Part shown: positions 8,975 to 10,677 of the stretch, one piece after another | Layout of the letters: every line of letters begins with the position of its first letter | How positions within the stretch are numbered: position 1 is the stretch's first letter | NCBI GenBank assembly: GCA_003278465.1 | Contig: QCFC01000005.1 | Location: 1-64,000 of the forward strand | Source of the DNA: Prochlorococcus sp. AG-363-B04 | Lineage (GTDB): Bacteria > Cyanobacteriota > Cyanobacteriia > PCC-6307 > Cyanobiaceae | Direction of reading: 5' to 3' | Length of the DNA: 64,000 nucleotides | Translations under genes and position numbers: made by a program | The notes under the pieces: model-generated | Databases searched by the model: none | Told to the model about the DNA's origin: nothing | The model's input: only the letters and a program-made list of their open reading frames with translations

Positions 8975-9208
8975 ATGGTTTGCCTTGAAACAGTTGAGGC
9001 CGCAATCTGTAGAGCAATCCCTGATGCACAGGTCATTGTAGAAGATCTCAATGGAGGAGGAGATCATCTTCAGGTAAATGTGGTTTCTAAATCTTTCGCT
9101 GGTTTACCTTTAGTTAGACAACATCAGCTTGTTTATGGGGCTCTTAAGAATGAATTAGCTAGCGAGGCAATTCATGCATTGGCCCTGAATACATCAACAC
9201 CAAACTAA
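8975..9208 (+). CDS. BolA family protein
   Basis: A 77-aa single-domain BolA protein. These small proteins bind monothiol glutaredoxins through a shared [2Fe-2S] cluster and act in iron-sulfur trafficking or iron sensing. Family features visible are the [20 protein letters not shown] core with the invariant His, and the [10 protein letters not shown] helix. The neighbour 19 bases downstream is a CGFS glutaredoxin, the usual physical partner, which supports both calls and suggests cotranslation. Confidence 0.92.
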
Positions 9209-9227
9209 GACTTTTACTTTCCCAACC

Positions 9228-9551
9228 ATGGATTCAAACACAAAGGCTCGAATAGAAGAATTAATTAATTCTAATCAGATCATTGTTTTTATGAAAGGCA
9301 CAAAGCTAATGCCCCAATGTGGATTTTCTAATAATGTTGTTCAGATTTTAAATTCGTTAGGAATGAGTTACGAAACATTTGATGTGCTCTCTGACATGGA
9401 AATTCGTCAAGGTATCAAAGATTACTCAAATTGGCCTACAATTCCACAAGTCTATGTAAAAGGAGAGTTCTTAGGAGGTTCAGATATTTTGATTGAAATG
9501 TACAATTCTGGTGAACTACGGGAGAAATTAGAAATTGCGCTAGCTTCTTAA
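9228..9551 (+). CDS. grxD: Monothiol glutaredoxin (CGFS type, Grx4/GrxD)
   Basis: A 107-aa monothiol glutaredoxin. The active site PQCGFSNNVV carries the single-Cys CGFS motif, preceded by MKGTK (glutathione-binding Lys) and followed by WPTIPQVYVKGEFLGGSDI with the cis-Pro and GG glutathione-binding turn. Such proteins assemble [2Fe-2S] clusters with glutathione and hand them on, often with BolA, encoded just upstream. The convergent gene at 9574 ends 22 bases away. Confidence 0.96.
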   Translation: MDSNTKARIEELINSNQIIVFMKGTKLMPQCGFSNNVVQILNSLGMSYETFDVLSDMEIRQGIKDYSNWPTIPQVYVKGEFLGGSDILIEMYNSGELREKLEIALAS

Positions 9552-9573: not shown

Positions 9574-9840
9574 TTATCTAGCTTTTTTTTGAAAGAGTGA
9601 ACTTATCTCACCATCAGGGCCAATAAAACTTGATGGGTCTTTAATCCACCTCTCTACAAGTTCTTCAAGTTTTATTTGTTCTCTTTGATCGAGTTGTCCA
9701 TTGCGCCTAAGGGCGTGAAGGTATCCATCTGCGTACAATTTGAGTTCATAAGGGCTGTGATGCCTTGTGGTGAGTTCCTGACAGGCATCGCACAAGGACT
9801 GGAAATGTCTGATTGAGTCTGGATGCTTTAGGTATGTCAT
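9574..9840 (-). CDS. Conserved cyanobacterial hypothetical protein, 88 aa
   Basis: A soluble, strongly helical 88-aa protein (HFQSLCDACQELTTRHHSPY near the start, ERWIKDPSSFIGPDGEI near the end). It is conserved-looking but I cannot assign a function; it may belong to a cyanobacteria-only domain family. It is convergent with the glutaredoxin gene and divergent from the response regulator at 9910, with a 69-base spacer that must hold both promoters. Confidence 0.75.
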   Translation of the reverse strand: MTYLKHPDSIRHFQSLCDACQELTTRHHSPYELKLYADGYLHALRRNGQLDQREQIKLEELVERWIKDPSSFIGPDGEISSLFQKKAR

Positions 9841-9909
9841 GGTCTTAGGGAATGACAGTCTTTGTTCTCAGGTTGCTCTTGCTTTTAGTTATGGTAGGCG
9901 AGTCTGAGA

Positions 9910-10677
9910 TTGCAAGTGACACCTCTCACACCAGATTTACTTCCATCTGAGCTTAGTCATGATCCTTTGACTTCGGCTCATACGATGCAGGCTCCTTCTC
10001 AAGGCCCGGCGAGGGTTCTTGTTGTAGAACCGCATCCAACCTTAAGAACTGTCTTGGTACAGCGTCTTCGTCAGGATCGTCATTTGACTGCTGCAGTAGC
10101 TTCTGCTGATGAAGCAATAAATTTATGCAGAGATCAGTCTCCTGATCTTCTTGTAAGTGCCGAGCTCCTAGAACAAAGTTCAGCTCTACGTCTTTCCCAA
10201 CAACTTGGATGTCCTGTAATAGTTTTAACAGCTAGGGCTGGTATTGAGTCTTTGGTAGGTTTGCTAGACGATGGTGCTGATGATGTTCTAAGAAAACCAT
10301 TTGGTCTTGAAGAACTTGCAGCCAGATGTCGGACTTTGCTTAAAAGAGGTCGTAGTGGATTACAAGAGCGTGTGTCGGTTGGCCCTTTAGAAGTTCATTT
10401 GTTACTCAGGCAAGTAACTTTAAGAGAGCAACCAGTTGAACTTAGCCCAAGAGAGTTTGCACTTCTTTGCGCTTTGTTAATGCCTCCGGGTATGGTCAGA
10501 AGTAGACAAGAATTACTTAGAATGGCATGGCCTCCTTTTAGTGGGGGACCTCGCTCTGTAGATACTCAAGTTCTTACTTTGCGCAGAAAATTAGAACAGG
10601 CAGGATTGGGTGAAGGTGGTGGAATTACAACGGTTAGACAACAGGGTTATAGATTCAGCCTTGATAATTTGTCATGA
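9910..10677 (+). CDS. OmpR-family response regulator with an atypical (phospho-acceptor-less) receiver
   Basis: A 255-aa protein: an unstructured leader (1-34), a receiver domain (about 35-150) and a winged-helix DNA-binding domain (about 155-252, with SPREFALLCALL, RSVDTQVLTLRRKLE and TVRQQGYRF). The conserved switch Thr107 and Lys129 (LRKPFG) remain. The acidic pocket is altered: VVEPHPTL replaces the usual VDDE, and PDLLVSAEL has Ala84 where the phospho-acceptor Asp normally sits. It therefore probably cannot be phosphorylated in the usual way and may act as a constitutive or ligand-gated regulator, as reported for other pseudo-receivers. No sensor kinase gene is adjacent. Confidence 0.88.
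   Translation: MQVTPLTPDLLPSELSHDPLTSAHTMQAPSQGPARVLVVEPHPTLRTVLVQRLRQDRHLTAAVASADEAINLCRDQSPDLLVSAELLEQSSALRLSQQLGCPVIVLTARAGIESLVGLLDDGADDVLRKPFGLEELAARCRTLLKRGRSGLQERVSVGPLEVHLLLRQVTLREQPVELSPREFALLCALLMPPGMVRSRQELLRMAWPPFSGGPRSVDTQVLTLRRKLEQAGLGEGGGITTVRQQGYRFSLDNLS

Follow-up and report, generated by a model that had tools for sequence, protein, structure and literature searches.

An OmpR/PhoB-type regulator without acceptor aspartate, conserved throughout the picocyanobacteria and probably independent of phosphorylation

The window analysed here, a stretch of 64,000 nucleotides from Prochlorococcus sp. AG-363-B04 (contig QCFC01000005.1), contains an intact open reading frame of 255 codons without internal stops, whose product matches the Pfam families Response_reg (PF00072) with 47.8 bits (cut-off 30.2) and Trans_reg_C (PF00486) with 59 bits (cut-off 26.2). 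With a receiver followed by an OmpR-type winged helix, the protein has the architecture of the OmpR/PhoB family (Table 1), and the second match agrees with a reading made earlier from the sequence alone, in which the winged helix was described as intact. Translation is predicted to start probably at the GTG at 9916 rather than at the TTG at 9910. At the corresponding residue 3, Val is found in 65 of 89 distinct rows of the alignment and a gap in 22, GTG stands at this codon in 67 of 152 loci (at ungapped offset), and a shorter N-terminus with ATG is seen in a number of rows from AT-rich Prochlorococcus, such as L058, L060, L082 and L084. With a start at GTG 9916, the residue termed Ala84 in the following would be numbered Ala82. 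An AlphaFold model based on 32 close sequences is poor (mean pLDDT 56.5, pTM 0.41). The genome (1.50 Mb, 78% complete) contains five receiver matches, among which this regulator is the weakest, a number that, for this incomplete genome, is in accordance with the earlier remark that response regulators are few in Prochlorococcus; excerpts of published work put their number in the strain MED4 at seven (PMC2663038) or six (PMC9321951).

Table 1. Features of the regulator locus, in positions of the window.
Feature	Position	Strand	Basis
bolA (8975-9208) and glutaredoxin (9228-9551), conserved neighbourhood	8975..9551	+	
DUF6761 protein (PF20547), divergent neighbour of the regulator	9574..9840	-	domain match, neighbourhood comparison
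Degenerate counterpart of the upstream element, candidate	9854..9871	+	by eye
Asp-less OmpR/PhoB-type response regulator	9910..10677	+	ORF, Pfam, alignments
Receiver (pseudo-receiver) domain, residues 36-139	10015..10326	+	Pfam PF00072
Glu40-Pro41, first acidic residue present, second replaced by Pro	10027..10032	+	alignment
Ala84 codon (GCC), phospho-acceptor position	10159..10161	+	alignment
Thr107 codon, conserved T position	10228..10230	+	alignment
Val126 codon, K-3 position (Tyr in 57/57 outside orthologues)	10285..10287	+	alignment
Lys129 codon, conserved K position	10294..10296	+	alignment
Winged-helix DNA-binding domain, residues 174-249	10429..10656	+	Pfam PF00486

The sequence-only reading had placed an alanine at the position of the phospho-acceptor, an assignment that was borne out when the protein was aligned with the remaining four receiver proteins of the same genome, whose Asp coincides with Ala84. 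The comparison was extended to orthologues from Prochlorococcus, Synechococcus and other Cyanobiaceae, with residues recounted over positions 34-252 in distinct sequences only (89 of 108 rows in a first orthologue set, 126 of 136 rows in a set that also includes deeper Cyanobiaceae lineages, and 57 of 57 rows from outside the family). In the first set, the acceptor position is occupied by Ala in 87 and by Ser in two sequences, and Thr107 and Lys129 are found in 89 of 89. Among the 126 Cyanobiaceae sequences, it holds Ala in 120, Thr in four, Ser in two and Asp in none and, being lineage-wide, the loss is neither an error nor the quirk of a single strain. A conserved Asp in this column, the alignment outcome that would have contradicted the earlier reading, was thus looked for and not found in the 126 sequences. 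Thr in place of Ala characterizes all four rows of genus g22 (L213-L216). The acidic pair, in the same reading described as replaced by the residues VVEP, has lost its second, metal-binding member (Pro41; Pro in 122 and Ala in four of the 126 sequences), whereas its first position is still held by the acceptable Glu40 (Glu in 113, Asp in 13). The retention of Thr107 and Lys129 was confirmed, with Thr in 125 sequences and Ser in one in the former and Lys in 126 in the latter position. The K-3 residue, which is the Y of the Y-T coupling, is Val in 126/126, D+4 is Glu in 110 and Asp in 16, D+8 is Ala in 121 and Gly in five, and both Phe at K+2 and Glu85 are found throughout. With regard to the canonical features of a response regulator, the protein thus lacks the acceptor Asp and carries an incomplete Mg2+-binding acidic pair, with Thr/Ser and Lys present. 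Further support for the predicted DNA binding in the absence of a phospho-switch comes from features that the sequence-only reading did not include, namely the Val at K-3, the Glu/Asp at D+4, the mostly Ala D+8 and a winged helix more conserved than the receiver.

The earlier assignment of the gene to the core genome also holds in a wider sample, since 197 of the 200 genomes searched in the order, that of the window included, contain the regulator, with best E-values of 2.7e-100 or lower. The three others (G129, G147 and G195) contain weaker, paralogous matches only, and they equally lack the adjacent gene encoding the DUF6761 protein, which is present in the control genome G007. Because this neighbour is missing as well, a gap between contigs is likelier than a true absence, and a real loss of the gene in these genomes is disfavoured. 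A contig of 3.8 kb filed under a metagenome-assembled genome of the planctomycete Rubripirellula (L051) bears the regulator with 83% identity and is most likely a mis-binned picocyanobacterial contig.

Outside of the Cyanobiaceae, we have hand-picked 57 matches, roughly one for each genus, among the top-scoring matches listed for 255 non-family genomes, a selection that leans towards clear orthologues and surveys gene-bearing genomes only. We regard these matches as probable orthologues on account of a gap in bit scores, their branch in the tree and a recurring gene neighbourhood. In three outside genomes, the best match scores 124, 120 and 116 bits compared to 83, 90 and 87 bits for the second. 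The aligned relatives are 33-41% identical to the protein of the window and resemble it in the region of the recognition helix. In the tree, whose bootstrap was not fully settled, the family constitutes one side of a 100/100 branch that separates it from 25 other regulators, of which 22 are paralogues from the three outside genomes. On the strength of the tree, the score gap and the neighbourhood together, we reject replacement of the orthologue by a paralogue. L138 is placed beside the Cyanobiaceae, a position that depends on long branches and calls for caution. When compared to curated families (the best 25 for each), the two outside relatives tested reach none of the cut-offs. The gene for the DUF6761 protein lies in divergent orientation within 1.2 kb of the regulator at 152 of 153 Cyanobiaceae loci and at 28 of 57 outside loci, counts in which the window occurs twice (as WIN and L086) and some species repeatedly. 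Ten of these 28 outside loci also show glutaredoxin and bolA within the short stretch of DNA compared. The DUF6761 protein, whose name was not found in the open-licence literature, is a predicted candidate for a functional partner of the regulator.

The outside orthologues display a different pattern of switch residues. Their acceptor position is Asp in 50 of 57 sequences, Ser in three (L151, L164 and L168), Ala in two (L139 and L158) and Glu in two (L162 and L177), and all 57 contain Tyr at K-3, Ser at the T position and the conserved Lys, with Pro at D+4 in 44 and Gly at D+8 in 46 cases. Only two of the 57 have an acid at the second position of the pair, which is lost in the other 55. On another tree, three changes of the Asp state are needed. 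Seen across the family, the comparison shows a phospho-switch dismantled in steps in a protein that was then conserved anew, a stepwise history newly recognized here, with the second acidic residue already missing in the outside orthologues. In a first step, this metal-binding residue disappeared early in the family, as seen in the alignment from its absence in 55 of 57 outside rows, most of which keep the Asp. Its loss makes efficient phosphorylation of the Asp doubtful even in members that bear it. The second step, likewise seen in the alignment and placed on the stem of the Cyanobiaceae, comprised the exchange of the acceptor Asp for Ala (in few cases Thr or Ser), of the Tyr of the Y-T coupling for Val, of the Pro at D+4 for Glu or Asp and of the Gly at D+8 for mostly Ala. 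By the criteria given in an excerpt of PMC12632262, the Cyanobiaceae and the outside group both look like pseudo-receivers, the outside group being a mostly Asp-bearing one. The absence of the Asp from some of the outside lineages suggests that the acceptor is dispensable more widely in the family. As a separate observation, 55 of the 57 outside orthologues have a Cys in the column of residue 96, which is lost in the Cyanobiaceae.

The two domains differ in their conservation. Within the Cyanobiaceae, the mean pairwise identity amounts to 95% in the winged helix (residues 158-252) and 81% in the receiver, and a uniformity of at least 98% is reached by 74 of 95 columns in the former compared to 46 of 114 in the latter. 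The regulators of 13 Cyanobiaceae genomes are 72-87% identical to the protein of the window, compared to 72-90% for RpaA and 81-96% for RpaB, with the genome of genus g22 accounting for the lowest value of each protein. The RpaA reference (L004) was defined by similarity to the RpaA structure 9dvt (E 1.5e-120) and the RpaB reference (L002) by a score of 396.1 versus a curated cut-off of 330. In three outside genomes, the identity of the regulator drops to 36-40%, whereas RpaA and RpaB remain at 72-73% and 85-86%, which points to fast change on the picocyanobacterial stem. The length of this stem was estimated in two trees as 2.06 to 4.84 changes per column, values that are saturated and indicative only, compared to a few tenths inside the family. 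Rapid change with strong conservation thereafter is better explained by an altered function or an altered mode of control than by decay.

The region between the DUF6761 gene and the regulator contains an element near GGCAKCSYCTGNTACCRG (GGCA..CTG.TACC(A/G)G), which is common to Synechococcus/Cyanobium loci (e.g. L045, L046 and L209) and located, as judged by eye, about 20 bases before the -10-like sequence TTAGCGTAAG. Inspection by eye did not reveal it in the AT-rich Prochlorococcus rows, and the window contains a degenerate sequence that is a candidate counterpart. With one mismatch allowed, the element was found at the regulator's own promoter in 12 of 18 chosen genomes and elsewhere in 15 matches over the 18 genomes together, compared to seven for a reversed control. 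Recurring among the matches elsewhere are TGCAGCCCCTGGTACCGG, in G062 and G029, and GGCATCCCCTGGCACCRG, in G086, G045 and G144. The seven of the 15 outlying matches that were examined fall within frames that run for 343-816 codons free of stops and are thus probably located inside genes. No regulon emerged from this search of 18 genomes at one mismatch. As a candidate, the element may be an autoregulatory site, the site of another regulator or part of the core promoter.

We propose, with a probability of about two in three, that the protein is the phosphorylation-independent picocyanobacterial orthologue of a cyanobacteria-wide OmpR/PhoB-family regulator that has lost its switch in two steps. 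With neither an acceptor nor the metal-binding acid, phosphorylation of an Asp is very unlikely, and the strong conservation of the protein despite the lost acceptor suggests that genes are probably controlled by other means. Precedents for OmpR-type regulators that act independently of phosphorylation are described in excerpts of PMC12632262 and PMC4395418. In the proposed mode of action, the receiver would now serve as a fixed module for dimerisation and positioning, and phosphorylation would not be required for the regulator to bind its DNA sites. The abundance of the protein would set its output, with possible autoregulation via the divergent promoter shared with the DUF6761 gene and possible further input from a partner or a signal other than phosphate, and no histidine kinase would be expected as its driver. 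The residues V116, L119, D124, D125, E135, R139 and R146, which we take to form the α4-β5-α5 dimer face of the OmpR family, are retained in 126, 123, 121, 125, 126, 126 and 125 of 126 Cyanobiaceae sequences, respectively, and continued dimerisation through the receiver therefore seems likely. Not kept, however, is one further position, presumably the equivalent of the salt-bridge residue K/R91 of PhoB, which is occupied by Leu in 60, Val in 58, Ile in three, Thr in three and Met in two of the 126, and by Lys in one of 57 outside sequences. The invariant Phe at K+2 is a feature that biases CheY towards inactive conformations (PMC12632262, in excerpt), so that constitutive activity cannot be plainly read from the sequence. 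Since a passive scaffold would not require Thr107 and Lys129 to be invariant, their retention raises the possibility that the pocket may still bind something.

Within the proposed phosphorylation-independent regulation, two alternatives are special cases that overlap with the main explanation. One of them, which we consider rather unlikely, invokes a thiol-redox switch as replacement of the phospho-switch, where Cys73, Cys140, Cys187 and, in most sequences, Cys101, which became fixed on the very stem where Asp and Tyr disappeared, would sense the redox state and change the oligomeric state and DNA binding, perhaps with glutaredoxin/BolA from the neighbourhood or thioredoxin as mediator. These cysteines are present in 126, 122, 126 and 109 of the 126 Cyanobiaceae sequences, respectively, and the same columns hold Cys in only 1, 0, 1 and 5 of 57 outside orthologues. 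However, the stem is so long in both trees (2.06 and 4.84 changes per column) that some newly frozen cysteines are expected, and the seven outside rows without acceptor Asp contain none of Cys73, Cys140 and Cys187 and in one case Cys101, so that the loss of Asp and the gain of Cys are not tied in these lineages. The conserved bolA and glutaredoxin neighbours, found also in some distant cyanobacteria, would suit such a mechanism, but the same neighbourhood accompanies outside relatives that keep their Asp. Thiol-dependent oligomers of Synechocystis RpaA, RpaB and Rre1 (PMC9321951) and the redox-controlled RitR, HP1021 and Cj1608 (PMC12632262, PMC5965902) provide precedents in excerpts of the literature. 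RitR from Streptococcus, an OmpR-type protein that is Asp-less like the regulator and serves as a model for redox control, switches by a single linker cysteine, Cys128 (PMC5965902, in excerpt), for which the regulator has no counterpart at matching distance. With Tyr100 of RitR taken as K-3, Cys128 is by count K+25, and the corresponding residue 154 is Arg or Lys in 88 and Cys in one of 89 sequences. Similarly, the redox cysteine of HP1021 and Cj1608 at DD+19 (PMC12632262, in excerpt) is absent, since residues 58-60 are His/Gln, Leu and Ala/Thr in 108 of 108 rows (repeats included). We deem it still less probable that an old regulator of the glutaredoxin/BolA neighbourhood, which was (weakly) phosphorylatable, has been rebuilt on the picocyanobacterial stem as a cysteine-based redox regulator, with loss of the Asp and the coupling Tyr and with four cysteines becoming fixed or almost so. 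If so, the product would now belong to the small, strongly conserved set of regulators in the most abundant phototrophs.

The other special case assigns control to a partner protein, perhaps the DUF6761 protein, or to a small ligand in the old pocket lined by Glu40, Thr107 and Lys129. Pseudo-receivers under control of ligands or partners exist (PMC12632262, in excerpt), and a near-invariant Thr107 and invariant Lys129 in a protein without acceptor would be consistent with an occupied pocket, as would the long-lived divergent pairing with the DUF6761 gene at 152/153 and 28/57 loci with a partner. Still, the divergent order may reflect just a shared promoter and the pairing is missing in 29 of 57 outside loci in the DNA stretch compared, and we thus judge this possibility to be slim. 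Slimmer still is the chance that the receiver is a decaying relic without role, with the winged helix alone being of importance. Although the receiver is the more variable of the two domains (81% versus 95% mean identity), its 46 uniform columns out of 114 include the surroundings of the pocket and the presumed dimer face, and the range of identities of the whole protein in the 13 Cyanobiaceae genomes (72-87%) is close to that of RpaA (72-90%). Residual phosphorylation, on Thr/Ser or on another acidic residue by the old site, appears hardly credible; it could draw on the Thr found at the acceptor position in four rows of one genus, on the Ser in two and on Glu85 in 126/126, but the position is Ala in 120 of 126 sequences and the second acidic, metal-binding residue is absent from all of them.

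Judged by its sequence, the phosphorylation-independent regulator proposed here belongs to the Asp-less pseudo-receiver class of OmpR-type regulators, with whose members, as portrayed in excerpts of PMC4395418 and PMC12632262, it shares a Pfam receiver match, the missing acceptor Asp, the lost second acid and a broken Y-T pair. This class is no single family, and in the picocyanobacteria the loss is lineage-wide and was followed by strong conservation. HP1043 from Helicobacter (PMC8345958) and ChxR from Chlamydia (PMC3960148) are OmpR/PhoB-type proteins that, according to excerpts, act without phosphorylation. By analogy, the regulator should act as they do, a likeness drawn at the level of the superfamily. 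A cyanobacterial example is NblR from Synechococcus elongatus, for which phosphorylation is not needed (PMC12632262, in excerpt). Response regulators are few in Prochlorococcus and, since one of them is present in 197 of 200 genomes and should not respond to the usual phosphate, two-component signalling probably does not account for one of the organism's few regulatory channels. The case is of moderate interest for the position of the protein within a minimal regulatory network and for its stepwise history.

The identity of the protein with better-known regulators was examined by comparison with curated NCBIfam models. With the NblR model NF045914, it scores 74.1, and two outside relatives score 124.8 and 120.4, compared to a cut-off of 300; with the RpaB model NF045944, it scores 95.2 compared to 330, a value exceeded by the genome's own RpaB (L002, 396.1); and with the PhoB model TIGR02154, it scores 121.8 compared to 296.2. 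All three identities were thus rejected. We take PMM1113 to be the locus of the regulator in MED4, a name that was not found in the open-licence literature, and the regulator is undescribed in the titles and abstract starts among the matches listed from this literature. We do not equate it with PMT9312_0717, whose gene number presumably indicates another place in the chromosome. PMT9312_0717 is described in an excerpt of PMC6365647 as an orphan PhoB-like regulator of Prochlorococcus. A further protein of the window's own genome (L001, in the region C3:83214-83540) scores 353.9 with the RpaB model, above its cut-off and below the 396.1 of L002, and the curated model seems to cover two paralogues.
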